Below, in pieces: positions 12,467 to 47,365 of a stretch of 64,000 bases of DNA. The notes under the pieces were generated by a model. It was not told where the DNA came from, did no database searches, and worked only from the letters and a program-made list of their open reading frames with translations. The stretch comes from Amphiura filiformis (taxonomy: Eukaryota > Echinodermata > Ophiuroidea > Amphilepidida > Amphiuridae). The DNA lies in assembly GCF_039555335.1 (NCBI RefSeq), contig NW_027305494.1:1342001-1406000 (forward strand). The letters run 5' to 3'. A program made the position numbers and the translations under genes. The stretch's first letter is position 1. Each line of letters starts with the position of its first letter.

Positions 12467-13229
12467 AAATGAACAAAACCAAAACATGTTTATAACATTT
12501 TAAAAACATTGCCTTTGTTGGAATATAACAAAAGTTACACAGTGAAAGTTGTGTAATATATGGCCAATTGAAATGAAATACGATAATAATACAAAACTCT
12601 CTGTAGTTTCTGTTTGACTAGCACAATGTAGACTTGTATTATATTCGTATCATAATCAGATACCGTATTATACTGAGTCGCAAATTGTGCAATCTGTAGA
12701 AACACATTGCCAATAAAATAATTTTGTTCATAGCTAACCAAAGACTTGTACAAAGATTAGTATAGACTAAGGTACTGATATTATAATAATATGAACACTT
12801 AAAAAAAAGTAAGTTCCCCTTTCTATTTGGCATGATATCTGTAAAACTAATAATTCAATTAAAATGGGTCTTGGTAGTGGATCACATCACACTAACTGAG
12901 AATTAATTGTTGGTACAATGTTCTTGATGTGTGTGCCAAAATCAATTTCAATCAAAAAATTTGCTTTGAAGATATAATTCCAAATTGAAAGGGGAACTTA
13001 CCTTTTTTGAAGGAAGAGCATGTAGAAACATTGTTTACATTTCAGTTTTGAAATGGTATTAATTTTCATTCGCAATGAAACAGAAATTCACCAACAAATT
13101 GCTTTCAAGTTTCGTATGAAGAAATTAACCTAGTACCTGATCTGATCTTAACACGAAAATGATGAAATCAATACCCAACCAAAGAAGTTGGTATTCAGGT
13201 AGCTATAATGAGAGTGTCATTTGAATACC
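12467..13229. other. Region upstream of the GPCR
   Basis: AT-rich with no second open frame of note. Contains an imperfect 20-bp inverted match (AAGTAAGTTCCCCTTTC near 12809 against GAAAGGGGAACTTACC near 12987). An AATAAA lies near 12711. Promoter elements were not recognised. Confidence 0.5.
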
Positions 13230-14348
13230 ATGTACACCATGGAAACAGTCAATGCAACCACTAATGGCTCTATCAATTTTCCCATGAGTGTGAATTACTG
13301 GGAGCAAATTTTTACAGCCATCCTTACTTTGCTTATCTCCGTAACTGGTATCATTGGGAACACACTAATTATTTTAGCAGTGGCCTTCTGCCAGAAACTA
13401 CAAACCTCTACAAATGCTTTTGTGACAAGTTTAGCAGTGGCTGACTTGTTGACATCCATATTCCTGATCTGGTTTTCTGTTAGCATTCTTGGTCATAATG
13501 AATGGCCTATTCCTAATGCTATATGGTTGTGCGATATAACGGGGTTTACAATATACGCTTGTAGAGGTACGAGTCTGTACACTCTCGCAGCCATTGCAGT
13601 CAATCGTCTTATCCTGATCACCAAATCATACACGTATAGTAAGATATTCACTTCATGGAAGCTTGTCATGTTAATCGCAATTCCTTGGATCATACCATGG
13701 GTGGCTTTCATCATTCTCATACTGGCAGGAGTGGGTCAGTTTGGTTATGACATTGGTGACCTGTCGTGCTCTGCTATAGGGTCCGCCTACCTTCCTGATA
13801 TAATGGCAATTTGCATTGCAGCCATTGGATTCCCTGTTCCATTGTCCTTGGTGGTCTTCAGCTACACCGGGATATATCTGTACTTGAGGAGACACTTCCA
13901 TGCTAAGAAGAGTACTATACAGATTCCATCGTCTCACGGAACAGATGACACTGGATCCAATGCACTGGATCTTGACGCGAAGGACAAACAGCTGCAGGTA
14001 TCAACACCAGATTTATCCGACAACGCTAATATGAACCAAACCAAACGCTATAGACAAATATCCCGAGACCAAATCAAGATCACCAAGAATCTCTTCTTGA
14101 TAGTGTGCTCTGTATATGTCTGTTTTCTACCTTATTTCATATGTCTCTTGTTAATTCAGAAGTCTTATATACGTGTACATTTCTATGCTCGCATAGTAAC
14201 ATTTGCTAATAGTGCGATAAATTTTGCGATCCATACCAGTAAGCATCCAGATTTTAACATGGTGATAAGAAATATGGTGCGGGGCTCATATTCGAACATC
14301 CCTCAACCGTCTCGACTTTTAAGGTTTCTCTTGTCAAAGTGGAAGTAA
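13230..14348 (+). CDS. Rhodopsin-class GPCR, moody/melatonin-receptor-like orphan
   Basis: Intronless 372-aa frame. A second ATG three codons later has a better Kozak context (ACCATGG at 13238) and may be the real start. The N-terminus has glycosylation sequons NAT and NGS. Seven hydrophobic segments are visible: TM1 with GNTLIILAVAF, TM2 with LAVADLL, TM3 after the conserved Cys of WLCDITGF, TM4 with PWIIPW, TM5 after GDLSC (the likely disulfide partner), TM6 with CFLPYF, and TM7 with ANSAINFAIH. It probably couples to heterotrimeric G proteins at the plasma membrane; the ligand is unknown. Oddities: the DRY position reads NRL, the CWxP tryptophan is Phe, and NPxxY is replaced by NFAIH. The TSKHPDF and IPQPSR strings after TM7 resemble the moody-like invertebrate receptors, which is the basis of the sub-family call. 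Confidence 0.9.
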   Translation: MYTMETVNATTNGSINFPMSVNYWEQIFTAILTLLISVTGIIGNTLIILAVAFCQKLQTSTNAFVTSLAVADLLTSIFLIWFSVSILGHNEWPIPNAIWLCDITGFTIYACRGTSLYTLAAIAVNRLILITKSYTYSKIFTSWKLVMLIAIPWIIPWVAFIILILAGVGQFGYDIGDLSCSAIGSAYLPDIMAICIAAIGFPVPLSLVVFSYTGIYLYLRRHFHAKKSTIQIPSSHGTDDTGSNALDLDAKDKQLQVSTPDLSDNANMNQTKRYRQISRDQIKITKNLFLIVCSVYVCFLPYFICLLLIQKSYIRVHFYARIVTFANSAINFAIHTSKHPDFNMVIRNMVRGSYSNIPQPSRLLRFLLSKWK

Positions 14349-17901: not shown

Positions 17902-18258
17902 TAACAGTTTAAGTATTTTACTTTATCTATCTACACTGTACCTAGATGATTTAGAATATTCACGAATAATTATATAGTAAACAAGAAAACAAATCATGGC
18001 TATAACTTATTTTACAATATTTTCAAATTCTACCAAAACCAGCCATCCCTTGCCACCTCTGCTTGCTATGACACAAATTTTACCCAAAGGAGACTACACT
18101 AAACTGAAAAGTTCAGATGCAAACACCGATATCCATTTTTCTCAGTAAGTAATAACTGGTCAAATATAAAGCACATAATAAGAAAATATGTGCTATTTTT
18201 AATCATAGATTCAGTTTACTTGAAACTTTTGGAATAACCCTGCGAGAAAGTATATATA

Positions 18259-18331
18259 ACCCTAACCCACCCTAATTATAACCCTAACACTAATCCTAAC
18301 CCACCCTAATTATAATCATAACCTACCCTAA
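18259..18331. repeat. Degenerate telomere-like (CCCTAA) tract
   Basis: Alternates CCCTAAC and CCCACCCTAATTATAA units. The paralogous tract at 21856-21938 shows it was carried in the kelch-exon duplication. Confidence 0.85.
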
Positions 18332-19340
18332 AATACAGGGTGTGCAGTACCAGAATTGTACCAAACTTTTAAAGTGGGGAATCAATTTACAGCATGAATT
18401 TTGCAGCAGATTTTGGTGGCCTGAGCCCCGAACTCAAACAATTTGAAAATGGCTTTTATCGTCTTTTGCATCTGAACTCTGAACAGAATTACACAATGTA
18501 GATACAATGAGTACAATACATACATGCACAAGCTCTAAAACATTTTACATTTATTGGTATAATCAAAGACAGAATTAAAAAGACTAGTTTAAGCGTCTGA
18601 CATATCATCTGTCAATTAAACTCTGGCACGGTTTGTTTACTAGTGTTGTGATGACTTGAGAATCTAAACGCGGCGGTAAAAAAGTGCAACTTATGTTCAC
18701 AATGCCTAGAAAGGTTGCTTTTTACCTTGTAAAGTACCGTAATTTTCTGTGATTCCCTTTTATCCGATCGACACCAGATGAATCAACCTTTTTTATGCTA
18801 TTAATTAACCAATCAAGGGTCATGGTGAGTTTGATTGACTGTGACATCAGATGCAAACTAGTCTTTTTAATTTTGTCTCGGATTATGAGAATATTTTTCC
18901 TTCAGGAATGTAAATTCAGTCCTCTTTTCTAGTGTTTGTTGCTCTGTAGTGTATGGACTTTTTTAGGGGCCTTGGGTTCCCAAACTGTGCTTCATAGCTG
19001 AGTAACTTTGCAATTGCATAAATAGAACTAATGATTGACATTAGGTCGCAAGGTATGGTACTCAAGAAATGGGGTATGGCCCAAAAAAGTTAAAATCAAA
19101 ACTTCTTATGACTCCTATTTGAGATATAATATACCTACATGTAGGCCTGTATATTGTTTCTATATATAGGTATAGGTGATCAGATTCTCATAGAATCAAT
19201 GTCGTAACACTACAACTGTTAGTTTCGGTATCGCCCTTTTTTCCTTTCTGCAATATTGTTACTTTTGATAGAAATATTTTTTGGATGCATCATCCCCTCT
19301 TCCATACCCCGGTTCCATACATGTTCTTGCATCAGCTAAT

Positions 19341-20237
19341 CTAGCACACCCAATGGGAATGGGACTCACATTCACATGCAATCTTTGTCATTCCTAGCTT
19401 CCGCTTGTCAAATGTGAACAATGGTTGGTCTAAACACCCCGCATATGTGCCAAATGTCTCTATCTCATCCACCCTCTCTGCAAAAGTAACAGTGGGCTCA
19501 TTGTTATCAAAGTTGCAAGCAAGCCGGATCACCTTAATGTCACGTACATCCCCTTCAACATATTTGGGTACATGGACAAAGTAGCAAATCCCTTTGTGAA
19601 CTAGCAAGTACTGTTTGTGGCTTCTCTCAGTAATGTATCTTACCGTTTCGTGGACGCTAACAGACACTTCAAACCATTTATTCTGCTCTGGTCTATAAAG
19701 TACAAATTGCTGAAGGAAACCTACGCACAATATGTCTCCACCAATCACTACAGCACTTTGTATGCTGAGATTCAGTTCATCTCCTGGTATACGCTCCCAA
19801 GTCTGATGGGATAAACTGTACCTCTGAATTATCTCCGTAGGTATTATTTCAAACTGCATGAATGCAATGGAGTATAAATAATCATCCAACTGAAGAAGAA
19901 TCGGAAGCGACTGGACGCTAGGCATCGGTGGGAGGACTATCCACTCATTCTTATCCCAATCATACTTGAAGAAGCTATTTTCAGATGCCCACTTGATATG
20001 TTCTTCATCTTCTTCTGGGTCTATTGTTGGAGGATTATCATTTGAACCAGCAACGTATAAATGGCCTGTATCCATAACAATTGCTTTAAAACCATGCACG
20101 TAATCTGGATCTTCTTGTGAATGATAAGGACATTTGTTGGGGATGTCGGCTAGTTGAGTAAGTTTGTAGCAGCCTGTATTGGTAGTGCATTCTATAAACA
20201 ATGTAGAATCCTTAACATCTTCTGTGGAAATTACAGC
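19341..20237 (-). CDS. Kelch terminal exon K4 of the kelch-like gene
   Basis: Minus-strand exon with acceptor TTTTTCAG just above 20237 and a stop at 19341; 897 nt, 298 residues, phase 0. It starts AVISTEDVKDSTLF. Degenerate kelch blades are visible: GHLYVAGSND then FFKYDWDKNEWIVLPPMP; DDYLYSIAF then IQRYSLSHQTWERI; IGGDILCVGF then FVLYRPEQNKWFEV; and a last repeat with GICYFVHV and VIRLACNF. The C-terminus is FDKRKLGMTKIACECES. In kelch-like proteins this propeller recruits the ubiquitylation substrate to Cullin-3. It is the kelch exon farthest from the BTB exon (13 kb away), and no BTB or BACK sequence lies between. The strict GG pairs of classical kelch motifs are mostly missing, as in divergent family members. 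It could instead be an orphaned duplicate that is never spliced in. Confidence 0.85.
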   Translation of the reverse strand, partial: AVISTEDVKDSTLFIECTTNTGCYKLTQLADIPNKCPYHSQEDPDYVHGFKAIVMDTGHLYVAGSNDNPPTIDPEEDEEHIKWASENSFFKYDWDKNEWIVLPPMPSVQSLPILLQLDDYLYSIAFMQFEIIPTEIIQRYSLSHQTWERIPGDELNLSIQSAVVIGGDILCVGFLQQFVLYRPEQNKWFEVSVSVHETVRYITERSHKQYLLVHKGICYFVHVPKYVEGDVRDIKVIRLACNFDNNEPTVTFAERVDEIETFGTYAGCLDQPLFTFDKRKLGMTKIACECESHSHWVC

Positions 20238-20690
20238 CTGAAAAATCAAAATGAATGGAGTTAGAGGGGAGTATATCCTCACCTAGTGGTGTTTGCATTC
20301 ACATATTGAGATAAATAAAGCTGACACATATGAGGAATGGTATGGGTTCTATAAGGAGATCCCAAGGCTTGTTAAAATAAGGCCTGAAATGGGTGCCATT
20401 TCTGCCCCATGCACGATTTTTCTCAGGTGGGAAAAATTACCCAAACTTTATTGGCCGTAACTCTTAGACTGATCTGACTGATGTAAATGAACTATTACAT
20501 GATTTCAAGAGTTACCTCTATTGTCTGATAAGAGTACATCACACTTGAAAACTTAATGTTTGTGATCTATAAAGTTTATATAAACAAATTTTATTCAGAT
20601 TTACTCCTGATCACTTCGATACAGTACTTATACAATGTATAACAGTCTTCAATTGTTGGTTTTGATATCATATCCTAGTTAGTAAAGGTA
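20238..20690. repeat. Intron segment conserved upstream of kelch exons
   Basis: The roughly 450 bp preceding each kelch exon (here 20238-20690) is also present at 24756-25230 and 28201-28700. Shared strings include ATAAATAAAGCTGACACA, CATGCA..GATTTTTCTCAGG and TAATGTTTGTGATCTATAAA. The duplicated unit therefore carried its own splice acceptor region. Confidence 0.8.
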
Positions 20691-20797
20691 CATAGAGTGT
20701 AGACTGATGAGTTTCACTATGAAATTTGTAGTGAAACAGTTTTGATAATTAAAGGTGGGTGGCCCCATGCACATATTCTATAAAGAAAGAAAATATA

Positions 20798-20986
20798 CAG
20801 TGGAACATCTTTAACATGAAATCTATGGGGCCACAGGTTACAGTTTGTGTTATCAAGATTTTATGTTATCAGGTACTTTAGCATACAAAAACAATGCCAG
20901 GGACTTCACTTTCACTTTCAACATCACTTTGTGTTACTGTATCAGGTTTTTTGTGTTAACAGATTTGGTTTAACGAGGTTCCACTG
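20798..20986. mobile_element. pogo-like MITE in the K3 module
   Basis: TA-flanked CAGTGGAACATCTTTAACAT with the inverted right end ACGAGGTTCCACTG. Orthologous to 17181-17345. Confidence 0.8.
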
Positions 20987-21267
20987 TATTGCTATAACAA
21001 AAGTGTAGATTTCATGTCCATATAAATTACACGGAGACTACAATCATTTTTAATATTTACGTACATGTTCAAAATAACATTCTTTGTTGCTTGTAAGTAT
21101 TTTTAGTACACTGTAAATGACTACTAGCAATGACATACTACTGATCAAGGTGCAGGAGATGGGGCAAGTTGGCCCCCTGAAAATACAGGGTCAAAATTGA
21201 CCACAATTTGTGTGCATCTTCCTTTTAGCAATTTAAATGAAGTAAAATAAATATTTAAAATGTTTAT

Positions 21268-21479
21268 CTGGATTTACTATTTAGCTACAGTATCACATTT
21301 CATCCCAGACGCATCTTCAGGCCTAAATGAGTTGGCGCTGAAATGTTGACCCGTGACCCAGTTGGAATGACGTCACAGGAGAGTTGTCACAGGACATTTA
21401 GATGCCAGCTCATTAGGCTTGAAGATGCGTCTTGGACGAGAAGTAAATACTGTAGCCAGCTTAAATAGTAAGTCCAGAT
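21268..21479. mobile_element. Foldback element in the K3 module
   Basis: Counterpart of 17701-17901, with the arm CAGACGCATCTTCAGGCCTA and its inverse GCTTGAAGATGCGTCTTGG. Confidence 0.75.
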
Positions 21480-21855
21480 GAACAGTTTAATATTTTACTT
21501 ATCTATCTATACCTGGATGATTCAGAATATTCACAAATAGTTATATATAGGAAAGAAGAAAACAAATCATGGCTATAACTTATTTTGAGTGGTCTGGTAA
21601 TTTTACAATATTTTCAAATTCTACCAAAAACAGCCATCTCTTGCCACCTCTGCATGACACAAATTTTACCCAAAGGAGACACTAAACTGAAGAATTCAGA
21701 TGCAAACACCGATATCCATTTTTTTCAGTAAGGCCAATTAATTTAACTGGTCAAATATAAAGAAAAAAATAAGAAAATATGTGCTATTTTTAATCATAGG
21801 TTCAGTTTACTTGGAACTTTTCGAATAATTCTGGAATACTCTGCACATAAGTATA

Positions 21856-21938
21856 ATCTTAACCCCAACCCACCCTTATTATAACCCTAATTCTAACCCA
21901 CCCTAATTATAATAACCCTAATCCTAACCTACTCTAAA
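21856..21938. repeat. Degenerate telomere-like (CCCTAA) tract
   Basis: Counterpart of 18259-18331 within the duplicated kelch module. Confidence 0.85.
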
Positions 21939-22722
21939 ACTCAGGGTGTGCTGTACTGTGTAAACCAGAATTGTACCAAACTTTTAAAGTGGGGTATTAA
22001 TTTACAGCATGCATAATCGGGCAGATTTTGGTGGCCTCAAACAGTTTGAAAATGGTTTTTATCATCTTTTGCATCTAAACTAGAATTTTCCTTAAGTTAC
22101 ACATTGAAGTACAATGAGTACAATATACATACAAGCTCTAAAACATTTCACATTTATTGGTATAATCAAAGACAGAATTAAAAAAACTAGTTTGCATCAA
22201 TTAAACTCAGGCATGGTTTGTTTACAAGTGTTGTGATGACGTGAGAATTGAACGTGGCGGTAAAAATTGTGACTTACATTGTATGGTTAATTTTACACCT
22301 TCAAACCTTTCTTTCCTGTTGGCACCATGTCCACAATGCCAAGAAAGGTTGCTTTTTGCGTTGTAAAGTACAGTAATTTTCAGCCATTTTCTGTGATTCC
22401 TTTTTATCCAATCAACTCCATATGAATCAACCTTCTTTTTATGGTACCAATCAAGGGTCATGGAGAGTTTGATTAACGTCAGATGCATACTAGTCTTTTT
22501 TAATTTTGTCTCGGATTGTAAGAATATTTTTCGCTTCAGGAATATCAGTTCTCTTTTCTAGTGTTTGTTGCTCTGCATGGACTTTTTGTCTCAAATACAA
22601 TTTTGCCAAGCATGACTTAAAAATATGCCTTTTCAAAGGGATAAAATCAAAAATGCAACAGTCAATGCACTAGGCCAGGGGTACACAAACTGTGTGTCAT
22701 AGGTGAGTAACTTTGTATTTAG

Positions 22723-23170
22723 AGAATAAACGATAGGAATTTTTATTTTGACTATCCTCTACCGTGTGATAGACGACAGGCAGGTCCAATACTACGATAA
22801 AAAAAAAAGAGGATAGTCGAAATAAAAATTCCTATCGTTTATTCTCATTCTTAGTCAGTTAAATATTATTTCAATAACTGGAAACTATTTTTTTAAAGCA
22901 AAAATTAAGTTACCGTCATAAAAACTTTTTCTAAAATGAACAAAACTTGTTTACAACTTCACATCTTTTGTTGCGTGCACTGTTAGCGTGTGTGAGTATT
23001 CTGCACTGCGTCTACGCATACAACGCGATACATATGCGCACCTCTACGAGCGTGTTACGCGTTGTCAACACTCATGATGATGTGGGGTCGTCTACCGCCT
23101 GATAGACGACACTCAAAATCCAATCAGATTATGTGTCTACGTAGTAGACCACTCCCACTGACTAAGAATT
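22723..23170. mobile_element. Hairpin and foldback element
   Basis: A 38-bp near-perfect inverted pair (GAATAAACGATAGGAATTTT at 22724 and its complement ending at 22845) with a 47-base spacer. A second pair, ATTCTTAGTCAGT (22847) and ACTGACTAAGAAT (23157), encloses GC-rich sequence with CTACGCATACAACGCG-like words. The element is absent from the other two kelch modules, so it is probably a later insertion. Confidence 0.75.
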
Positions 23171-23816
23171 AATAATAATTACTATACAGTAGTTAACAGT
23201 TGACATTGGGCTTGGCCGATTGTTAAAAACAATTGATTTTGATTCTTTCTTTTTTTTAAAACCACCTATCAGTTGAAAACATTGCTTAAAAAATCTATTT
23301 GCTTAGAAAAACAATAGATTATTTTAAAAATAATTGAGTACCTGATTAAAAAAAGTAATTGATTAATGATTATTTTTGATTAATCTAAATATCGCTCAAG
23401 CCTGGTTGACATTAGGTCGCAAGGCATGGCACTCAAGAAATGGGGTATGGCCCAAAAAAGTTGGAGCCTCTCCGCTGCCATAATCAGAACTTCTTACGAC
23501 ATTAATTCTAAACCAATTACCAAATATAAATACCGGGTATAGTTTAGGTATGGCCCTATGGCCAGCATTGGATAGTGGCTTGGTGTTGCAAAATGCTACT
23601 CAATTTTATAAATTTACTATACAATTTTGGAACTGGATAACATTTTTATGTCATAGACTAATACACTGAAATGTGTGAAATATACAATGTACCTCGAGAT
23701 ATTGTGACAGCAGATTTTGTTATGCAAAAAAAACCGTTTCTTAATTCCAACATTGTGCCATTATTTTATTTTTTTCTGCGATATTGTTGCTTTTGATGGG
23801 AATATTTTTGGATGCA
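23171..23816. other. 3' flank of kelch exon K3
   Basis: AT-rich; includes the ATTAGGTCGCAAGGCATGG string common to the modules. No separate gene seen. Confidence 0.5.
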
Positions 23817-24755
23817 TCATCGCCTCTTCCACACATGTGTTCTTGCATCAGTTAACACATGCTTCCATTGGAAGTGGGATTTGCATTCACATGCAATCTT
23901 TGTCATTCCTAGCTTCCGCTTGTCAAATGTGAACAATTGTCGGGCTAAACACCTCACATATGTGCCAAATGTCTCCATCTCATCCACGATCTCTGCAAAA
24001 GTAACAGTGGGCTCATCGTTATCAAAGTTGCAAGCAAGCCGGATCACTTCATTGCCACATACATCACCTTCATTATATCTAGGTATTTGGACCAAGTAGC
24101 AGATACCTTTGTGAACTTGCAAGCACTGTGTGCTGCATCTCCTGTTTTTAGTGACGTATCTTACCGTTTCATGGACACTCACAGACACTTTATACCATTT
24201 ACTCTGCTCTGGTTTATACAGTACAAACTGCTGATAGAAACCTACAAACAATATGTATCCACCAATCACTACAGCACTACTTATGCTGAAATTCAGTTGA
24301 TGCCCTAATAATATACGTTCCCAAGTCTGATGGGATAAACTGTACCGCTGAATTATTTGCACATGTGCAAACTCCATGAATGCAATGGAGTATAAATAAT
24401 CATCCAACTGAAGAAGAATCGGAAGCAAGTGGATAGTAGGCATCGGTGGCAGGATTATCCACTCATTCTTATCCCAATCATACTTGAAGAAGTTATTTTC
24501 AGATGCCCACTTGATATGTTCTGCTTCTTCTTCTGGGTCATCTGTTGGAGGGTTTTCATTTGCACCTGCAACGTAAAGGTGGCCTGTATCTATAACAAAA
24601 ACTTTAAACCCATGCACATAATCTGGATCTTCTTCTGAATGATAAGGACTCTTGTTGGGGATGTCTGCTAGTTGAGTAAGCTTGTAGCAGCCTGTATTGG
24701 TAGTGCATTCTATAAACAATGTAGAATCCTCAACATCTTCTGCGGAAATTACAGT
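23817..24755 (-). CDS. Kelch terminal exon K3 of the kelch-like gene
   Basis: Acceptor GATTTTTCAG above 24755 and a stop at 23817; 939 nt, 312 residues, phase 0, starting TVISAEDVEDSTLF. It has the same blade order as K4, with FFKYDWDKNEWIILPPMP, DDYLYSIAFMEF, IIQRYSLSHQTWERI and FVLYKPEQSKWYKV. Its C-terminus is extended by about 13 residues (ending HVWKRR) because the stop used by K1 and K4 is altered. Intact over its whole length despite many substitutions and three-base indels relative to K2 and K4, which points to selection on the protein. Confidence 0.85.
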   Translation of the reverse strand, partial: TVISAEDVEDSTLFIECTTNTGCYKLTQLADIPNKSPYHSEEDPDYVHGFKVFVIDTGHLYVAGANENPPTDDPEEEAEHIKWASENNFFKYDWDKNEWIILPPMPTIHLLPILLQLDDYLYSIAFMEFAHVQIIQRYSLSHQTWERILLGHQLNFSISSAVVIGGYILFVGFYQQFVLYKPEQSKWYKVSVSVHETVRYVTKNRRCSTQCLQVHKGICYLVQIPRYNEGDVCGNEVIRLACNFDNDEPTVTFAEIVDEMETFGTYVRCLARQLFTFDKRKLGMTKIACECKSHFQWKHVLTDARTHVWKRR

Positions 24756-25239
24756 CTGAAAAATCAAAGTGGTCGAATGGAGTTAAGGGGAATTAGAGGG
24801 TAGGGTATTTGCATTCAAATATTCAGGTAAATAAAGCTGACACATATGAGGAATGGGTCCTATATAAAGGCGATCCCATCAAAGCTTAATAAAATAAGGC
24901 TTAAAGGGGTGTCATTTCTGCACCATGCAGGATTTTTCTCAGGCGGGAAAAATTGCCCAAACATTTGTTTTAATAGATTGGCCGTAACTCGTAGATCAAC
25001 TGCTCTGACTGATGTAAATGAACTATTACATGATTTCAAGAGAGTTACCTCTATTGCCTGATAAGAGTACATCACACTTGAAAACTTAATGTTTGTGATC
25101 TATAAAGTTTATTAAAACAAATTTAAATCATATTCAGATTTAATCCTGATCACTTGGATACAGTACTTATAATATAACAGTCTTCAATTGTTGGTTTTAA
25201 TATTCTTATCATATCCTAGTTTGTAAAGGTATATACTGT

Positions 25240-26809
25240 ACATGTAGTGTAGACGGATGAGTTTCACTATGAAATTTGGATGAGAAGCTTAAATAGTAAG
25301 TCCAGATTGAACAGTTTAAATATGTATTTTACATTATTTATATATCTACCTGGATGATTCAGAATATTTACAAATAGTTATACATTTTTTGTATTTTAAT
25401 AGCAAAGAAGAAAACAAATCATGGCTATATAACTTATTTTGAGTGGTACTGGTAATTTTATAATATTTTCAAATTCCACCAAAACCAGCCATCCCTTGTC
25501 ACCTCTGCTTGCTATGACACAAATTCTACCCAAAGTAGACTACACTAAACAGAAGAGTTCAGATCGATGCACACACCGACATCCATTTTTCTCAATTCGG
25601 CAAATTTAAATGGTCAAATAATAAGAAAATATCTGCTACTTATATAATCATAGGTTCAGTTTACTTAGAACTTTTGTATCAACTTACAGCATGCATTTTA
25701 GGGCAGATTTTGGTGGCCTTAAACTCAAATGGTTTGAAAATGGTTTTATCATCTGTTGCATCTGAACTTTCCAATTTTTACTTTACACAAGTAGCTACAA
25801 TATATACAACCACTAAAACATTTCAAATTTATTGGTATAATCAAAGACAAAATTAAGAAGACCCAAGTTTGTGTTTGACGTCACCTGAAAATCAAACTCG
25901 GGCATGGTTTGTTTAAGAGTGTCGATCGTAACGACTGAGTTTCTGAACGTGGTGGTAAAACAGTGTGCCTTTTGGTTAATTTTACACCTTCAAATATACA
26001 AACCATCTTATAAGTCAGGTACATGTATCAGTAAACTTTCTTTCCTGAAGGCACTGTGTTAACAATGCCTAGAAAGTTTGCTTTTTGCCTGGTAAATGTA
26101 CCATAAATTTTCGCCATTTTGTGTGATTCCTTTTCTGAGCTAGGTTTCTCCGAACGACACCAGATGAATCAATTACCTTCCTTTTATGCGCTACTAACTA
26201 ATCAAGGGTCGTGGGGAGTTTGATTGACAGTGACACAAACTAGTCTTCTTAATTCTGTCTCGGGAAAAATAAGAATATTTTCCCTTCCAGAATGTAAATT
26301 CAGTTATCTTTTCTAGTGCTTTGTTGCTGTGTATGGAAACATGTTTTATCCCCGGGTTTTATCCCATACATAATTTTGTCAAGCATGGCTAAAAAATATG
26401 CTTTTTCAAAGTTTAATCAAAAATGCAACACAGTCAATGCACTAGGCTAGGGGTTCACAAACTGTGTGTCATAGGTGAGTAACGTTGCATTTAATAATAG
26501 AACTAATGATTAACAATTGACATTAGGTCGCAAGGTATGGTACTCAAGAAACGGGGTATGGCCCCAAAAAGTTGAAACCTCTGCACTACCGTATGTAAAA
26601 ATCAAAACTTCTTATGGCTCCTATATGAGATATATACCTACATGTACATAGGCCTATATATTAATTGTGTCTATACAATGTAGGTAGCTAGGTTCTCATA
26701 GAATCGATGTCGTAACACTTTGAAATGCACTACAACTGTTAGTTTAGGTATTGCCATTTTTTCTGCAATATAGTTGCTTTTGATGTATTCTACATGTAGC
26801 ACAATTTTG
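25240..26809. repeat. Flanking module of the decayed kelch exon
   Basis: A third copy of the module blocks, with a remnant of the foldback near 25270-25310, the CCAATAAA-type minus-strand signal near 25828 and the ATTAGGTCGCAAGGTATGG string near 26521. The pogo-like MITE and the CCCTAA tract are missing here. Confidence 0.7.
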
Positions 26810-27234
26810 AAGTGGGATTTGCATTTACATGCAAAATATCTTTGTCATTCTTAGCTGTGCATAATGGCTCATCTAAACACCACGCAAATGTGCCAAATGT
26901 CTCTTATCTCATCAACCATCTCTGCAAATGTAATAATGGGCTCATTGTTTTCAAAGTTGCAAGCAAACTGCATGGATCACCTTCATCCTTCCTGGGCATT
27001 CTGACAAAGTAGCAGATACCTTCGTGAACTACAAAAGTCAGTGGTGGCACCAGGATTTTTTTTTCGGGGGGAAGTGAATTTCAGGGGGCAAAATCAACAA
27101 ATTTTGTGCAAAAATGGCACCAAAGAGTGGAAATTTACATGATTTTGGGTTTTTTTGCATCAAAGCGGAGGGGGGGGGTACTGATTGATGTATCTTCTAC
27201 TGTCATCAGTGTATACCATTTTGTTGACATATTT
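26810..27234 (-). pseudogene. Decayed kelch exon (psi-K), interrupted by an insertion
   Basis: The minus strand matches the C-terminal third of the kelch exons, most closely K1 (shared TCATCCTT..TGGGCA and ATACCATTTTGTTGACA). It has an ATG-rich frame break, a deletion around 26973 and an insertion of about 150 bp (27034-27183). The 5' two-thirds of the exon is missing. It lies directly against the 3' flank of K2. It cannot encode a propeller and shows that the array has had at least five kelch exons. Confidence 0.8.
27034..27183. mobile_element. Short G-rich repeat insertion within psi-K
   Basis: Begins CAGTGGTGGCACCAGGATTT and ends in a G run. A related sequence lies in inverted orientation at about 41890-42070 (CAGTGGCGGCGCCAGGAATT as complement). 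It splits kelch-homologous sequence on both sides. Confidence 0.65.
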
Positions 27235-27285
27235 TTGGGTATGCATCCTGGGGAATGTATCATCCACATTCTCTTCTTGCATCAG

Positions 27286-28200
27286 TTATTCTAACACACC
27301 CATTGGAAGTGCAGGGTGGGACTTGCATTCACATGCAGTCCTTGTCATTCCTAGTTTCCGCTTGTCAAATGTGAACAATGGTAGGTTTAAATACCCCGCA
27401 TATGTGCCAAATGTCTCCATCTCATCCACCCTCTCTGCAAATGTAACAGTGGGCTCATTGTTATTAAAGTTGCAAGCAAGCCGGATCACCTTAATGTCAC
27501 ATACATCCCCTTCAATATATTTGGGTATATGGACAAAGTAGCAGATCCCTTTGTGAACTAGCAAGTACTGACGTTTGTAGCTTCTCTCAGTGATGTATCT
27601 TACCGTTTCGTGGACACTCCCAGACATTTCAAACCATTTATTCTGCTCTGGTTTATAAAGTACAAATTGCTGAAGGAAACCTAAAAACAATATGTATCCA
27701 CCAATCACTGCAGCACTTTGTACGACAAGATTCAGTTTATGTCCCGATATACGCTCCCAAGTCTGATGGGATAAACTGAACCTCTGAATTATCTGTGTAG
27801 GTATTATATCACACTCCATATATGCAATGGAGTATATATAATCATCCAACTGAAGAAGAATCGGAAGCGACTGGATACTAGGCATCGGTGGCAGGACTAT
27901 CCACTCATTCTTATCCCAATCATACTTGAAGAAGTTATTTTCAGATACCCACTTCATATGTTCTGCTTCTTCTTCTGGGTCATCTGTTGGAGGATTTCCA
28001 TTTGCACCTGCAACATACAAGTGGCCTGTATCTGTAACAAATGCTCTAAAGCCATGGTCGTAATATTCTTCATCTTCTTGTGAATGATAAGGACATTTGT
28101 TGGGGATGTCTGCTAGTTGAGTAAGCTTGAAGCAGCCTGTATTGGTAGTGCATTCTATAAATAATGCTGAATCCTCAACCTCATCTGTGTATATTAAAGC
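27286..28200 (-). CDS. Kelch terminal exon K2 of the kelch-like gene
   Basis: Acceptor CCTTTTTCAG above 28200 and a stop at 27286; 915 nt, 304 residues, phase 0. The exon start reads ALIYTDEVEDSALF, which has no in-frame initiator, so it can only be used as an internal or terminal exon. Blades: HLYVAGANGNPP, FFKYDWDKNEWIVLPPMP, DDYIYSIAYMECD, IIQRFSLSHQTWERI and FVLYKPEQNKWFEM. Its C-terminus, GVLE, differs from the WMC/WVC ends of K1 and K4. Confidence 0.86.
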   Translation of the reverse strand, partial: ALIYTDEVEDSALFIECTTNTGCFKLTQLADIPNKCPYHSQEDEEYYDHGFRAFVTDTGHLYVAGANGNPPTDDPEEEAEHMKWVSENNFFKYDWDKNEWIVLPPMPSIQSLPILLQLDDYIYSIAYMECDIIPTQIIQRFSLSHQTWERISGHKLNLVVQSAAVIGGYILFLGFLQQFVLYKPEQNKWFEMSGSVHETVRYITERSYKRQYLLVHKGICYFVHIPKYIEGDVCDIKVIRLACNFNNNEPTVTFAERVDEMETFGTYAGYLNLPLFTFDKRKLGMTRTACECKSHPALPMGVLE

Positions 28201-28756
28201 CTGAAAAAGGAAAGTGATTGGAGTTAAAGGGAGTCAGAGGGGAGCATAACCTCACCTAGCGATGTTTGCATTCAAATATTGAGATAAATAAAGCTGACAC
28301 ACTAGAGGAATGGTATGGGTTCTATAAAGGAGATCTCAAGGCTTGTTAAAATAAGGCCAAAAGGGGTGCCATTTCTGCCCCATGCAGGATTTTTCTCAGG
28401 CGGGAAAATGACCCAAACATATGTTTTAATAGATTATTGACCGTAACTCATAGACTGATCTTACTGATGTAAATGAACTATTACACGATTTCAAGAGAGT
28501 TACCTCTATTGCCTGATAACTGATAAGAGTACATCACACTTGAAAACTTAATGTTTGCGATCTATAAAGTTTATTAAAACAAATTTAAATTATACCATTA
28601 TATTCAGATTTACTCCTGATCACTTGGATACAGTACTTATATAACAGTCTTCAATTGTTGGTTTTGATATTCTTATCATATCCTAGTTTGTAAATGTATA
28701 TTGTTTAGGCAGGGATTTTCGGGCTGGCTCACAGGTGCCCGCCCAAGATTACATGA

Positions 28757-29770
28757 CCCGGGGGTACTCACATACAAATGCTATACGGGGATGTGCCGCC
28801 CAAATGGGTAGGTTTTCCACAAAAAATCCTTAGCTATGGGTCTGTGTTTTGAAGAAAAAATCCTTTAAGGAAATCTGTACCATAAACTAATCAATGGCTA
28901 TATAGTTGCAGTAATAATAAAAACGACAAACAGTAAAAGTCCCAAGCTTATATACGTCCAATTAAAGGAGAAATTCTTAATTCCTTACGACAATCAGCGA
29001 TCAGTTTGTAATCCATGGTGGCGGCCATATTGATACCAATGTATTTTATTACGCTGTAACGGTACCCCGATTTTGAAACCAGCGAAATCCGTGCCACCAG
29101 CACTCGCGCTCGTGAACTTTGGTGACACGAAGAGAATACTACCAAAGTTCAGATTTAACATTCGTTCAAAAGAAAACGTGACAATTTTTACCCATAAAAC
29201 TACAGAACATAAAAAAATGTATTTTTAAGTAATATTTATGATCAACAATGTCTTTTTGAGAACGAAAAGTAAAAACAGCACTAAAAACCAAAATTCGCTG
29301 TGGGGGTCGCGAATGCCATAGCAATATACACGCTCGCCGCGGGTCTGTGTGAAAGGTTACACTATACCGCTTGTGGCAGAAAGGACTCGCAAACAGCTAT
29401 CATGGCGGCTTCCATGAATCGCAGAAACGAAGGATTAAAAGTGCTTTTTCTTTGTTAGGAATATTCCGAAATTCATATAGACCATCTGGTATGTTTAATT
29501 TAGGGGTATATAACTATATTAGCCATTGATTAGTTTATGGTACAGATTTCCTTTAATAGACATGGGTCTCCCTTTTAGATTTTCCATGCTATGTGTGAAA
29601 AACATGCGGGAAAACATGTTGCTTTTACTACTTTCAAGCTCAAATCCTTATATGTGGGTCCTTATTTCCTGAAAATCCTTAGGTAAAATTACCCTTAGAA
29701 ATGGGTATGGGTTCTGAGCTTGGGCCACACATCCCCATCGAAATATAATCCAAGTACCCCCAGCCCCGGG
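28757..29770. mobile_element. Outer TIR element disrupted by a nested MITE
   Basis: CCCGGGGGTACTCACATACA at the left and, inverted at the right, CCCGGGGCTGGGGGTACTTG, followed on both sides by CGGGGATGTG/GATGGGGATGTG. The interior is split by the element at 28867-29553. Confidence 0.8.
28867..29553. mobile_element. Inner MITE with AAGGAAATCTGTACC termini
   Basis: AAGGAAATCTGTACCATAAA and its inverse bound 687 bp, with the next 18 bases (CTAATCAATGGCTA) also inverted. Inserted inside the element 28757-29770. Candidate minus-strand AATAAA for exon K1 lies within it near 29044. Confidence 0.85.
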
Positions 29771-29930
29771 TTCTATACCTATTAATTGTTTCTATAGGTA
29801 TAGGTTCTCATAGAATCAATGTCGTAACACTTTGAAATGCACTACAACTGTTAGTATATTGTTGCTTTTGATGGAAATATTTTTTGGATGCATCATTGCA
29901 TCTTCCACACATATTCTTGCATCAGGTATT

Positions 29931-30824
29931 CTAGCACATCCATTGGGAATGGGACTTGCATTCACATGCAATCTTTGTCATTCCTAGCTTCCGCTTGTCA
30001 AATGTGAACAATGGCTTGTCTAAACACTGTGCAAATGTGCCAAATGTCTCTAACTCATCCACCATCTCTACAAATGTGATAGTGGGCTCATTGTATTCAA
30101 AGTTGCAAGCAAGCCGGATCACCTCATCACTTTCATCCTTATTGGGCACTCTGACAAAGAAGCAGATACCTTTGTGAACTACCAAGTACTGTTTGATGTA
30201 TCTACGGCTGTCTTCAGTATATACCATTTTGTTGACAGACACTTCAAACCATTTATTTTGGTCTGGTTTATAAAGAACAAACTTCTGATGGTCAAATCCT
30301 ATGTTATAGACATCACCAACAAACAATATGTATCCATCAATCACTACAGCACTTAATATTTGGCAATTCAGTTTCTGTTCTGATATGCATTCCCAAGTCT
30401 GATGGGATAAACTGTATCTTTGAATAGGTACTCCATTCTCCAAGAATGCAATGGAGTACAAATAATCATCCACCTGAAGAATAATTGGAATGAACTGGAT
30501 AATAGGCATCGGTGGCAGGACTATCCACTCATTCTTATCCCAATCATACTTGAAGAAGTTATTTTCAGATGCCCACTTGATATGATCTGCTTCTTCTTCT
30601 GGATCCAATTCTATCGGAGAACTATCGTTTGCACCTGCAACATAAAGATGGCCTGTATCCATAACAAATGCTGTAAAGCCATGCAAATAATCTTGATCTT
30701 CTTCTGAATGATAAGGACTCTTGTTGGGGATGTCGGCTAGTTGAGTAAGCTTGTAGCAGCCCGAATTGGTACTGCATTCTATAAACAATGTATAATCCTC
30801 AACATTTTTTGTGGAAATCACAGC
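29931..30824 (-). CDS. Kelch terminal exon K1 of the kelch-like gene (most proximal)
   Basis: Acceptor CTTTCCAG above 30824 and a stop at 29931; 894 nt, 297 residues, phase 0, starting AVISTKNVEDYTLF. Joined to the upstream exons it gives a 587-aa BTB-BACK-kelch protein, normal for the family. It is the most divergent of the four kelch exons: it has an extra segment with DVYNIGFDHQKFVLYKP in the third blade and shorter loops elsewhere (LENGVPIQRYS). It retains the core strings FFKYDWDKNEWIVLPPMP and FDKRKLGMTKIACECKS. Confidence 0.88.
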   Translation of the reverse strand, partial: AVISTKNVEDYTLFIECSTNSGCYKLTQLADIPNKSPYHSEEDQDYLHGFTAFVMDTGHLYVAGANDSSPIELDPEEEADHIKWASENNFFKYDWDKNEWIVLPPMPIIQFIPIILQVDDYLYSIAFLENGVPIQRYSLSHQTWECISEQKLNCQILSAVVIDGYILFVGDVYNIGFDHQKFVLYKPDQNKWFEVSVNKMVYTEDSRRYIKQYLVVHKGICFFVRVPNKDESDEVIRLACNFEYNEPTITFVEMVDELETFGTFAQCLDKPLFTFDKRKLGMTKIACECKSHSQWMC

Positions 30825-31046
30825 CTGGAAAGAAATGAGTTAAGGCAGGTCAGAGGGGGAAGCATGACCTAGTTGTGTTTGCACTCAAATATTGAGCCAA
30901 AAAGCTGACACACAAGAATGGTTTGTGTTCTAGACAAGGTGTATAAAAAATGCCACTAGATCAACTAGAATTACGCTGTTGTGCCCCCACACAAAGGTGT
31001 GCAAATAAAAGGTTTGTAAATACAAATAACATGCAATGCAAATAAG

Positions 31047-31501
31047 TAGGCCTGCACGAATAAGTCGCCAATAGTCGCAACCTCGACTATTTGGCGACAG
31101 TTGTGACTACTACTAATGATTGCCAATTAGCGACTATTCCTGAAAGTTCAACAGCAACAAAATTGAATTAAAGGGCTCTAAAAATGAAGAACATGTGCTA
31201 CCGCCTTAAAAAAGCAAAGACAACATCAAGAATGAAGTGTGTTTTATTGATTGTAATTTTTTTGAGTCATCATGGTCTTCACTTGTCAGTTGTATGTGTG
31301 TACAATAATAATGTCCCCAGCAGTGTTCTGTAATCGTCCCACTTTTTACTGCACAAAGAGTGTATATTTTTAAGTGCTGGATTCTGAACCACAAAAAAGT
31401 AAGCTTGAACTTTTGACCTTTGATAGTCACCGATAGTCATAGTCGCTACTATTTGGGTGGCGTTTAGTCGACTACTAAAAAGCCCATGTTGTGCAGTCCT
31501 A
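31047..31501. mobile_element. hAT-like MITE in the intron before K1
   Basis: Termini TAGGCCTGCAC and, inverted, TAGGACTGCAC resemble the hAT end pattern. The interior repeats GTCGACTA/AGTCGCCA-type words around CGACTATTTGGCGAC. Flanking octamers CAAATAAG and CAATAATG are only partly alike, so the target duplication is not proven. Confidence 0.6.
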
Positions 31502-31509
31502 CAATAATG

Positions 31510-31765
31510 CAAATAACATGAGTCAAAACTATCACAATACCAAGTTTGATATAAAATTGGACGGATTGAGCATGATACCTTGATCGGTTATTGCGTTTTA
31601 GCTACAGAATGCATTGATGAAAATATATGCAAATAAGCTCATTAATATTCATAAATATTCAAATAACATGACACAAAATTATACAGCACATCAAGTCACC
31701 ATATCCATTCCCCATACCAAGTTTGATATAAAATTGGATGGATTGAGCATGATACACAAAGATAT
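31510..31765. repeat. Imperfect direct repeat of about 160 bp
   Basis: CCAAGTTTGATATAAAATTG followed by GA(C/T)GGATTGAGCATGATAC occurs at about 31541 and 31697, each preceded by AAATAACATGA. Intronic. Confidence 0.7.
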
Positions 31766-31891
31766 TGGTCAAGCTGTGCGTTTTAAAAGATTCAAAGAAT
31801 TTCACAAGTCTTCCTGCAAACCTTGATGAACTAATTTGCTTCTAATGAGGCTAATGAAGTTCTGTCTGTACAAACATGCATGTGTACATAC

Positions 31892-31966
31892 CTTTATTGT
31901 GTTTCTAGTAGCAAATAAGGCAGGATGACTAATCATCAAAGGCACCACAGCTTCCTCCATCGTAGC
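31892..31966 (-). CDS. Exon 3 (25-residue linker) of the kelch-like gene
   Basis: Exactly 75 nt between acceptor AATTGCAG (above 31966) and donor AAG|GTATGT (below 31892). It encodes ATMEEAVVPL then MISHPALFATRNTIK, in phase 0. Position and sequence fit the end of the BACK domain and the bridge to the first kelch blade, where kelch-like proteins typically have a variable linker. Too short to stand out as an open frame; found by splice signals and frame. Confidence 0.75.
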
Positions 31967-32428
31967 CTGCAATTAATAGAGATGTTCAATTGTCAAGTAG
32001 GATATTTCACATGGAAAAAGGTGATTATTTTGATTTAAGTTAATGAGGGGGTCAACCATGTCTGCCGGGAAAAAATTAACAAAGTTATGGGCAAATGTCT
32101 TTTTTCAAAATTATCCAGCCATCATTGACGTCTGTGACAAGGCTTTAGAATGCTTTACTGTACAAAAAAATCAAGAAATGCACCATTTTTCACCACACCG
32201 ATCCATTTTACACGAAACACAAGCTATTTTATTTGATGAAATCTACTGAATGGTAACTTCTGTATCAAGGATAAAGTACCCAGCACTTTTTTACCTTCAT
32301 CCTCTAGTTTGTGGTGTCCACATTTCAAATATTTGTATTGTATAGGGATTACACAAGCCATTTTATACTGTGGTTTCAATTTTGAGTCGAAGGAGTCCCT
32401 CTATAGTAAGCAATGTGGCCATGCCTAC

Positions 32429-32605
32429 CTGTAACTTGACAACCTCCTCCATCATCTCCTCGCACCCTGGTTTAGCAAGTATCTCATCACCAAGGATCTC
32501 CTTGAGTCTGTCTCCTGGTATCAAGCCAAGGCGTATTTTCTTCAGGATATCAACTGTATAGCATTGACGATCCTCCCATTTATGTCTAACCCATTTGATG
32601 GTCAC
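32429..32605 (-). CDS. Exon 2 (C-terminal BACK domain) of the kelch-like gene
   Basis: 177 nt, 59 residues, phase 0. Acceptor TCTTACAG above 32605 and donor CAG|GTAGGC below 32429. It reads VTIKWVRHKWEDRQ and then a helix-rich segment with ILKKIRLGLIPGDRLKEIL. The W-x4-R and LL..IRL..IP patterns are those of the BACK domain, which orients the kelch propeller relative to the Cullin-3-bound BTB. Confidence 0.85.
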
Positions 32606-32845
32606 CTGTAAGATCTGGATGTGAACAAATTGTGGGAAAAAATAGTTAGGGGTATACTATACATACACTGTATATTCACTACACTACATGTAGGCTAGGC
32701 TTTAAAGACAGTAAAAGTAATTTCATATTTATCATTATCATCAAATCTGTAGTATATATTAATGACCTACATAGAACTACTTGGTATCATTAGCCAAGTG
32801 TAAATGACTCAAAAGTCACTAAACATCAAATAAATATATGTTCTT

Positions 32846-33159
32846 AAAGGAGGATTCCGTGATCATAGCATCCTCTTTTTATGATATTTTTCAGTAGATA
32901 TCCACGAAAAAGCTTATTCCCAAAAATTTCAGTTGATTCTGATTTTGCGTTTACGAGTTATGCATAATTATGTGTATTACACTGCTCCATAGGCCACTGT
33001 TGTTCAAATTTCACGTTATCTTTGCTAAACGAATGAATCTGCAAGAAATATTTGGTACATAAACATTATGTAGCCAGAGGTATCCAGTGGTATAAAAATC
33101 TTAAATTTTTTTGAGAAAAGTGAGGGGATGAGGCTGTGGATCACGAAATGCCCTTCTAA
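32846..33159. mobile_element. MITE of the GTGATCC family, copy 2
   Basis: AAAGGAGGATTCCGTGATC at the left; the right end, inverted, matches AAGGGCATTTCGTGATCC. Opposite orientation to 12181-12466. Sits within intron 1 of the kelch-like gene. Confidence 0.82.
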
Positions 33160-33407
33160 GTTAAAGATGTTTCAATGATGTTCTTTCGATCGCACATGGC
33201 ACATATGTTGCAGTACATGTACCAGAAACTATTTAAAACCTTATTCAGAGATAAATGATTTGTGAATTACAGAGATCTGATACTTGTCTCACTTGACATG
33301 ATAATACACTTTATATAGTTGATAAGAACAAAACTGACTCAAATGCAAGATGTTCTTGCAAGTTACATTCACATGGTAATAAATGCTTAGTAAAATGTTT
33401 AACTCAC

Positions 33408-34047
33408 CTGCTCTTCAGTACATGAATCCGTCTCAATTTCTTCATCGCAAAGTCCTTTCAAGATGAAATCTACAGGAACAGATTCCAGACACAACTCCGA
33501 CTCAATGCACTTGATAAAGTTTTTCATGAGATGTTTATGATAACACTGGGCAAGGTCAGACAGCAGATCATGATCCTTTGCATGGAACCAGATCTTTAAA
33601 CAGTCATCAATGGAGAATGAATCTGTCAAACTAATCAGGAAGTCAGCACATTCTTGCATGACCTCTGTGAAACCCATGTAACAAGCTAATCCCAGAATCC
33701 CTACAACTGTGTTCAGAGACACATAAAACTTTCCAGTATATGCAAAGTCTAATATTGGTTCAAAAAATTCCCCAATTCCAGGAACTTCAACCTCATTTTC
33801 TTCATTTTCTTTCCAATGACATGCGAACATGTTACGGAAGTAGCTGGTGGCGCAACTCAGAACGACTTTGTGCGCCTGGAACCTGTCATCTCCAGCTGTA
33901 ATGGTGACGTCACAGAATCGACCTTCTTTTCTCAGTTCATTGAGTTCTGATGATGTGCGAGTTAAGTACGTATGATTTATCAATTGCTGTTTTGTGTCAA
34001 ATTTATTTTGCCGAGATGATGCCATCTTTCTCTTCAGTCGATGTTAC
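33408..34047 (-). CDS. Exon 1 of a kelch-like BTB-BACK-kelch protein (shared by all kelch exons)
   Basis: Codes 206 residues from ATG 34025-34023 to donor CAG|GTGAGT; bases 34047-34026 are 5' UTR behind an acceptor (TTTTTACAG), so at least one upstream non-coding exon exists. The BTB fold spans about residues 20-130: HTYLTRTSSELNELRKEG, FCDVTITAGD, FQAHKVVLSCATSYFRNMF, VEVPGI, FEPILDFAYTGKFYVS and NTVVGILGLACYMGF. BACK begins with ADFLISLTDSFSIDDCLKIW. Such proteins dimerise and bind Cullin-3 through BTB, with the kelch propeller choosing the substrate. This is the only BTB exon in the window, yet four intact kelch exons lie downstream. I place it in the KLHL family but cannot name the orthologue. 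Confidence 0.92.
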
Positions 34048-34359: not shown

Positions 34360-34600
34360 TAGCGTGGCCTAGCGGTTAAGGCACTGGACTGTGAATCCAA
34401 GGGTCAAGGGTTCAAATCCCAGGTCCGCCTGAGTTTGGCTGGCTCTTTGTGAGGGTACTTTAAGCTGTCGGTCCCGTGTACATGCATATTTTCTCACATT
34501 AATGTACATTTCTTTTGTAGTGTGCACGTAAAGAACGTCACAGGCTATTAGAAAAAAGCAGGGGATCATCCTAGTACTGTTGACTGTACTTCAAAAATAC
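34360..34600 (+). mobile_element. tRNA-derived SINE
   Basis: The head has an A-box-like TGGCCTAGCGG (34365) and a B-box-like GGTTCAAATCC (34409). The tRNA-like part (anticodon position GTG in CTGTGAA) has a broken acceptor stem. It is followed by a body with GTGCACGTAAAGAACG and a downstream ATAATATAATA tail. This combination is typical of V-SINE-like tRNA SINEs of marine invertebrates. Length is approximate. Confidence 0.75.
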
Positions 34601-47101: not shown

Positions 47102-47365
47102 TTGTACAATGTTTATGTCAGTACGTATTATCTCTACAAAATCCACAGAAAGAAAACCGGTAAAGGCGTTCAGTACAATTTGCATGCAGGTGTTAGTTTG
47201 CTTGTTGCTGCAGGGGACATAGAAACAAATCCGGGACCAGTAAAGAAGGGGAGAAAGCCAAAGTTTCCTTGTGGGCTTTGTCAATACGCTGTTAAAAACA
47301 ATGATGCTGCTCTTGAGTGTGACTCTTGTAAAAACTGGATTCATAACAAATGTTCAGGGTTACAG
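47102..47365 (+). pseudogene. N-terminal part of the retrotransposon protein: 2A-like motif and PHD finger
   Basis: The open frame runs through hydrophobic HAGVSLLVAA into GDIETNPGP, which fits the D-x-E-x-NPGP consensus of 2A ribosome-skipping peptides. It continues with basic KKGRKPK and a zinc-finger pattern (CGLC, CDSC, WIHNKC, then ICPSC after a frameshift at about 47365). No ATG is present in frame near the start; the true initiator may lie in missing 5' sequence. 2A-like motifs at this position are known from sea urchin and other invertebrate CR1-group elements, where skipping separates an N-terminal leader from the replicase. Confidence 0.8.

Follow-up and report, generated by a model that had tools for sequence, protein, structure and literature searches.

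The window, a 64,000-nucleotide stretch of Amphiura filiformis DNA, contains a BTB exon, two further exons encoding BACK sequence and four kelch exons, all on the minus strand. The features are as follows, in the order in which they would be transcribed.

33408-34047, minus strand: BTB exon (Pfam BTB, 8.2e-24, cut-off passed), 100% identical to residues 1-206 of the database proteins P0005 and P0006.
32429-32614, minus strand: BACK exon 2, defined by its acceptor sequence and by the ILQ codons in P0005 and P0006.
31966-31892, minus strand: exon 3, 25 codons in phase 0, flanked by AG and GT; the ends are switched at its donor.
29931-30824, minus strand: kelch terminal exon K1, 297 aa and a stop; nearest database protein P0007 (90%).
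28201-28701, minus strand: intron block preceding K2, also present before K3 and K4.
27286-28200, minus strand: kelch terminal exon K2, 304 aa and a stop; the end of isoform X2 (P0005).
26654-27035 (approximate limits), minus strand: decayed kelch fragment, the 3′ part of a K1-type exon with downstream sequence, frameshifted.
24756-25234, minus strand: intron block preceding K3, also present before K2 and K4.
23817-24755, minus strand: kelch terminal exon K3, 312 aa and a stop; the end of isoform X1 (P0006).
20238-20693, minus strand: intron block preceding K4, also present before K2 and K3.
19341-20237, minus strand: kelch terminal exon K4, 298 aa and a stop.

The coding part of the BTB exon spans 34025-33408, comprises 206 codons and ends in phase 0; the preceding 34047-34026 is probably 5′ UTR following an AG. 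A preliminary description, made from the letters alone, had placed this exon on the same strand as the kelch array, and this was confirmed. Its limits for exon 3 were likewise right, but exon 2, given there as 32429-32605, most likely starts 9 nt further upstream, at 32614, because the two annotated isoforms are longer here by three codons (ILQ) and an in-frame AG is found there. Among the paralogs listed, ILQ is also present in P0008, P0010, P0012 and P0018. Exon 3 is identical in P0005, P0006 and P0007, and the BACK domain was recognized in the joined K4 form (Pfam 1.6e-8, 35 bits against a cut-off of 20.9).

As predicted, translation showed all four kelch exons to be complete and open in phase 0 from the acceptor to a stop codon of their own, each preceded by a pyrimidine-rich stretch ending in CAG. 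Kelch_6 was detected at or above the curated cut-off in every one (1.6e-8 to 1.5e-5, with K1 exactly at the cut-off), and the exons matched each other at 66-81% amino-acid identity in a tblastn search of the whole window. In our judgement, chance does not account for four homologous exons that each stay open over ∼300 codons. None opens with a methionine, in agreement with the earlier reading, and the open frame extends just 15-45 nt upstream of each acceptor, again without a methionine. When the BTB and BACK exons were searched against the whole window by tblastn, no second copy of either was found (other matches were short, with E 0.36 or worse); no other BTB exon lies between the kelch exons, and no separate one for K2-K4 was found in the window. 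Poly(A) hexamers follow every kelch stop (at +47 for K3), but such hexamers are common in AT-rich DNA and were not used as evidence. Rfam at its gathering threshold returned a tRNA-like match only.

Two of the four kelch exons occur in separate database isoforms. The NCBI isoforms X1 (P0006) and X2 (P0005), which are database models, begin with the same 293 residues of BTB-BACK sequence, which match the window; X1 ends in K3 (100% over 312 aa) and X2 in K2 (100% over 304 aa). No protein joining K1 or K4 to the BTB-BACK part was present among the database proteins found, in a database clustered at 90% identity and with one relatives search scoring 7,999 candidates that shared most words. A K4-joined form hidden in the P0005 cluster is unlikely, because it would be ∼90% identical to P0005, whose cluster consists of one sequence. 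P0007 is a close relative encoded on another contig (71.7 Mb) and carries exon 3. No kelch-only protein for K1-K4 was found in the protein database; the family does include the kelch-only proteins P0060 and P0061. The proposal of one scaffold with four interchangeable propellers is therefore partly supported: the joins to K2 and K3 occur in database isoforms, which are models, whereas K1 and K4 are joined in no protein found, and the domain family suggests both CUL3 binding and distinct substrates.

Since K2 and K3 alone appear with this BTB-BACK part among the database proteins found, K1 and K4 might be silenced duplicates that have kept open frames, leaving two ends rather than four. Coding constraint bears on this reading. 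The dN/dS comparison called for by the preliminary description gave pairwise omega values of 0.49-0.66 among K1-K4, not near 1, with the bootstrap interval below 1 in five of six pairs (that of K2-K3 reaches 1.02); the six pairs are not independent of each other. Omega was 0.49 for the K1-K4 pair and 0.51 for K3-K4, both with intervals below 1. No copy contains a stop. In neutral simulations the probability of this was 0.0135 for K1, 0.0465 for K2, 0.0425 for K3 and 0.187 for K4, so that the open frame is unremarkable for K4, the shortest branch, as silencing would allow, but not expected for K1, the longest. Of the indels, 4 of 30 in the exons were not multiples of three, versus 22 of 31 in the homologous introns preceding K2-K4, counted in pairwise nucleotide alignments alone; codon alignments were left out because their gaps are multiples of three by construction. 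Two sets of stretches were dropped from the nucleotide comparison because they were not clearly homologous: those downstream of the exons (all six pairs, 43-52% identity) and, upstream, those of the three of six pairs that include K1 (49-51%). The acceptors of K1 and K4 are intact, and the decayed fragment is an internal example of a copy without constraint, of what an unused exon can become. We consider silencing of K1 and K4 rather unlikely, and favour a gene with four alternative ends.

The sequences immediately upstream of K2, K3 and K4 also resemble each other. Substitution identity among the three was 91.6, 93.0 and 87.0% upstream versus 86.5, 90.3 and 87.4% in the exons, and the exon dS of 0.20-0.23 exceeds the divergence of the upstream intron block; the block may be either constrained or recently exchanged. 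A longest-complement test gave no docking-like complement of the Dscam or PGRP-LC type between intron 3 and the stretches preceding K1-K4 (longest words 9-10 nt). Complement words of 9-14 nt were present between introns 1 and 2 and the K2-K4 stretches, the 14-nt word pairing intron 1 with the K3 stretch. With ∼450-500 nt, the shared block offers putative room for a promoter, and K2-K4 could belong to separate genes, each with a first exon or promoter to itself, encoding kelch-only proteins such as P0060 and P0061, in which case the joined models would be annotation chimeras, as gene models can be. We regard this as improbable: the kelch exons and the short open stretches before them offer no methionine, kelch-only proteins were found for none of K1-K4, P0007 carries exon 3, and the same kind of switch in eight groups is hard to obtain from random chimeras.

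These eight A. filiformis groups, this gene included, switch ends near the end of BACK (17 of the 52 named matches). The other groups were compared at the protein level, and six sets of ENA proteins listed on contigs of equal length were left out of the evidence for alternative ends. In one group, isoforms with a single N-terminus are named KLHL15, KLHL21 and ENC1-like; alternative kelch ends may explain such differing names for isoforms sharing an N-terminus. That the array arose in assembly, perhaps by the head-to-tail stacking of alleles, is very improbable: although the P0005/P0006 contig measures 1.4 Mb versus 60-103 Mb for those of other named relatives and the close relative P0007 lies on the 71.7-Mb contig, the longer spacer matches between copies are ∼71-80% identical, too diverged to be alleles of a single site, both the length and the content of the units vary, and the isoform structure recurs in the other groups, on contigs of 65, 86 and 103 Mb.

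An AlphaFold2 model of the K3 form had a mean pLDDT of 88.6. Its best PDB match by Foldseek was KBTBD2-CUL3-RBX1 (E 1e-21), KBTBD2 also being the best PDB match by sequence, and it matched the kelch domains of KBTBD2, KLHL20 and KEAP1 with an rmsd of 4-5 Å to the kelch chains. From residue 291 on the model contains 21 strands of at least 3 residues. By this strand count the propeller is perhaps five-bladed rather than six-bladed. In KEAP1 the substrate face is made up of the BC and DA loops (PMC4668279). Among K1-K4, variable positions made up 64 of 116 in the BC/DA loops versus 8 of 38 in the AB/CD turns, with class limits set from the model and any column gapped in one or more of K1-K4 counted as variable (P 0.0003, post hoc, because the test was made after the table was seen). 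Strand positions (47 of 126 variable) did not differ significantly from all others (80 of 171; P 0.12). In this post hoc comparison the differences among the four exons K1-K4 concentrate on the modelled substrate face. Structure also limits variation in the AB/CD turns, which are short. The same loop bias was seen among 38 other family members, and is thus a family property, not special to the alternative exons.

In Drosophila, mod(mdg4) joins a constant BTB 5′ part to alternative 3′ exons. The lola gene also carries alternative ends on a BTB part, with at least 20 isoforms generated by cis- and trans-splicing (PMC1947980). Our locus resembles both in its anatomy of a constant BTB 5′ part and alternative carboxy-terminal exons, two of the four joins being present in database proteins. 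In contrast to lola, a transcription factor with mostly zinc-finger ends, the variable ends here are kelch (Pfam) rather than zinc fingers, whole propellers behind BTB-BACK. Homologous alternative terminal exons are known from pip and PGRP-LC, the latter with mutually exclusive 3′ variable regions (PMC9013439). Like those of pip, the exons described here are homologous and tandem, each with its acceptor and stop, but the proteins are others altogether. Choice in PGRP-LC involves competing RNA structures, whereas our simple complement search gave no docking-like match. Domain order and fold, with BTB, BACK and kelch propeller all present, are those of the KLHL and KBTBD CUL3 adaptors (KBTBD2, KLHL11, KEAP1). 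Unlike in KBTBD2, the kelch part has diverged (15% identity over 249 aligned residues), and unlike these adaptors the gene has several kelch ends as alternatives behind a single constant part and, by the model's strand count, perhaps five blades. Consistent with the earlier statement that such an arrangement was unfamiliar, a literature search gave no report of alternative kelch terminal exons among the matches listed, in titles and abstract beginnings. The words 'kelch', 'BTB', 'isoform' and 'alternative splicing' were absent from the main text of the genome paper (PMC11310086). Alternative terminal exons that are homologous to each other are in themselves nothing new; what seems new here is a BTB-BACK-kelch variant of the lola/pip design.

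The locus is very probably one gene, in which a scaffold of the CUL3-adaptor type is combined with alternative terminal kelch exons. A constant 5′ part of BTB and BACK (exons 1-3) would be followed by alternative last exons arranged in tandem, every one of them encoding a complete kelch propeller and a stop codon. The exon 3 donor would splice to one kelch acceptor and, because of the stop at the end of every kelch exon, the protein would carry one propeller whichever acceptor is used. By analogy with the domain family, CUL3 binding and dimerisation would fall to the constant part, while substrate selection would depend on the propeller that was chosen, with a different substrate for each. Splice choice, together with poly(A) choice, would then re-target one ubiquitin-ligase adaptor; here we infer both the use of K1 and K4 and the way of choosing.

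Animals mostly change ubiquitin-ligase targets through separate KLHL genes. One gene in A. filiformis seems to swap the whole substrate-binding propeller by choice of the last exon, and the isoforms suggest likewise in seven further groups. Tentatively, brittle stars may possess a genome-wide adaptor repertoire, with many BTB-BACK loci bearing arrays of kelch ends, diversification of the substrate face, and cassette-like duplication, exchange and loss. Through the dimerisation of BTB proteins, even a small number of exons at each locus would in such a repertoire yield many adaptor pairs, which would perhaps recognise fast-changing targets, for example pathogen proteins. The alternative ends would provide a natural set of near-isogenic adaptors, with the same CUL3-binding part but propellers that differ, and a case in which the re-wiring of protein degradation by splicing can be tested.

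Translation of the minus strand revealed a BTB exon followed in order by BACK exon 2, exon 3 and four kelch terminal exons (K1, K2, K3 and K4):

33408-34047, minus strand, BTB exon (start codon at 34025; ends at 33408 in phase 0)
32429-32614, minus strand, most likely extent of BACK exon 2
31892-31966, minus strand, exon 3
29931-30824, minus strand, K1 (297 codons, then stop)
27286-28200, minus strand, K2 (304 codons, then stop)
23817-24755, minus strand, K3 (312 codons, then stop)
19341-20237, minus strand, K4 (298 codons, then stop)

All four kelch exons start in phase 0 behind a pyrimidine-rich tract with a terminal CAG, so the preliminary description of intact exons, each with its own acceptor and stop, was borne out for every one. 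The upstream border of exon 2, formerly placed at 32605, most likely lies at 32614, because the database isoforms carry three additional residues (ILQ) ahead of that position and an in-frame AG fits the longer exon. When the BTB and BACK exons were searched by tblastn against all 64 kb, no second copy of either was detected, consistent with the earlier claim that no other BTB exon exists here. In the AlphaFold2 model of the K3 form (BTB-BACK plus K3), residues 291-580 hint that the family's propeller could be five-bladed, not six-bladed.

Two Amphiura filiformis proteins from the first homolog search (55 proteins) contain this scaffold: P0005 (kelch-like protein 32 isoform X2) and P0006 (uncharacterized protein, isoform X1 in UniRef). 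Each is listed on a 1,406,000 bp contig, from which we infer that both lie on one contig that includes the window. Both are 100% identical to the BTB exon, exon 2 and exon 3 over 206, 59 and 25 residues; P0005 then ends in K2 (100% over 304 residues) and P0006 in K3 (100% over 312). Without any input from the preliminary description, public gene models thus already attach a single constant part to K2 as well as to K3. That account had proposed one scaffold with four propellers; the joins to K2 and K3 support it, but no protein among the homolog matches listed carries K1 or K4 behind this BTB-BACK part. Isoform models at NCBI are usually backed by transcripts, as these two may be.

The locus is best read as choosing among alternative last exons. 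The donor of exon 3 would splice to a single kelch acceptor and the transcript would terminate after the chosen exon; because every kelch exon carries a stop, one propeller per protein would be guaranteed. The constant half would bind CUL3 and dimerise, and the kelch half would pick the substrate.

The dN/dS comparison proposed earlier gave Nei-Gojobori values of 0.49-0.66 (K1-K2 0.57, K1-K3 0.53, K1-K4 0.49, K2-K3 0.66, K2-K4 0.56, K3-K4 0.51). Bootstrap intervals excluded 1 in five of the six pairs, that of K2-K3 reaching 1.02. Indels that are not multiples of three made up 4/30 in pairwise nucleotide alignments of the exons and 22/31 in the upstream 500 nt, counted for the three K2-K4 pairs only, the other flanks being not clearly homologous. 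In neutral simulations on the fitted branches, the chance of acquiring no stop was 0.0135 (K1), 0.0465 (K2), 0.0425 (K3) and 0.187 (K4). Within 26654-27035 lies a fifth copy, corresponding to the 3' end of a K1-type exon; it aligns to K1 at 74% and is disrupted by frameshifts, so an unconstrained copy has decayed at this locus.

Spacers between the units share longer matches of ~71-80% identity and short stretches of up to 95%. Blocks of ~450-500 nt directly precede three of the exons:

28201-28701, minus strand, upstream intron block of K2
24756-25234, minus strand, upstream intron block of K3
20238-20693, minus strand, upstream intron block of K4

These are 87-93% identical by substitution, with many indels (87-99% in 75-column steps across the far half), and match one another roughly as well as the exons do, if not better; K1 has only about the final 100 nt in common with them. 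The shared block may be a control element, and is a candidate for setting acceptor choice, or may reflect recent exchange. P0007, a close relative on a 71.7 Mb contig, preserves exon 3 in full, together with the final nine codons of exon 2, without a change. Its kelch part is a mosaic: over the first 90 columns it is closest to K3, and its second half matches K1 almost completely. This suggests that kelch exons have exchanged sequence, or that an allele was left unplaced; P0007 could be an allele, a paralog or a conversion product.

Degenerate telomere-like CTAACC-type short repeats occur at 18257-18335, 21848-21937 and 10991-11066, two of the three in kelch-array spacers. Other features of the window were:

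47347-50393, plus strand, LINE-type element (endonuclease and reverse transcriptase domains, overlapping open frames)
13212-14345, plus strand, rhodopsin-type GPCR reading frame, 378 codons
10034-11592, plus strand, probable exons of a methyltransferase-domain gene (Pfam match in the first stretch only, 10034-10429)
34365-34422, plus strand, tRNA-like sequence (weak Rfam match) a short way upstream of the BTB exon, perhaps a SINE of tRNA origin

At least 52 of the proteins listed are named as A. filiformis (at least 51 in one homolog listing, plus P0007). A comparison of 120 family proteins brought out ten Amphiura pairs whose members are identical over 293-313 residues, counted from residue 1, and differ immediately beyond that block. 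The switch lies no more than a few residues past an RNT or RGT motif near the BACK end. The pairs make up eight groups, 17 proteins in all:

W, window locus
A, P0115/P0116
B, P0096/P0097/P0109
C, P0095/P0107
D, P0090/P0091
E, P0086/P0092
F, P0084/P0088
G, P0089/P0094

P0145/P0150 also share a long block, but reflect truncation and were left uncounted. Where they align, the kelch parts of one group show 52-74% identity. Since three of the 17 proteins have short tails (88, 88 and 100 aa), only six of the eight groups possess two near-full kelch ends. Groups A-G were read from proteins alone, and their isoform pairs are therefore possibly chimeric models. Four lineages can be told apart among the BTB-BACK parts, with 34-48% identity from one lineage to another and 95-97% inside each. 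In the kelch tree K1-K4 and P0007 form one clade (100/99), and two pairings, each at 100/99, cross loci: D2 with G1, and B3 with C2, where both rows are short. Such pairing would be expected if the arrays were older than the locus duplications, or if kelch exons had moved between loci. Relatives within A. filiformis also combine a conserved BTB-BACK part with strongly diversified kelch parts (P0011/P0017, 90% versus 39% identity).

No kelch case of alternative terminal exons was present among the literature matches listed, which covered open-licence papers. In the passages available, pip has tandem homologous terminal exons and PGRP-LC mutually exclusive 3' regions (PMC9013439), and lola joins a BTB part to alternative ends (PMC1947980). 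The present locus resembles pip in its homologous tandem terminal exons and would resemble lola in joining a BTB part to alternative ends, but here the ends are kelch.
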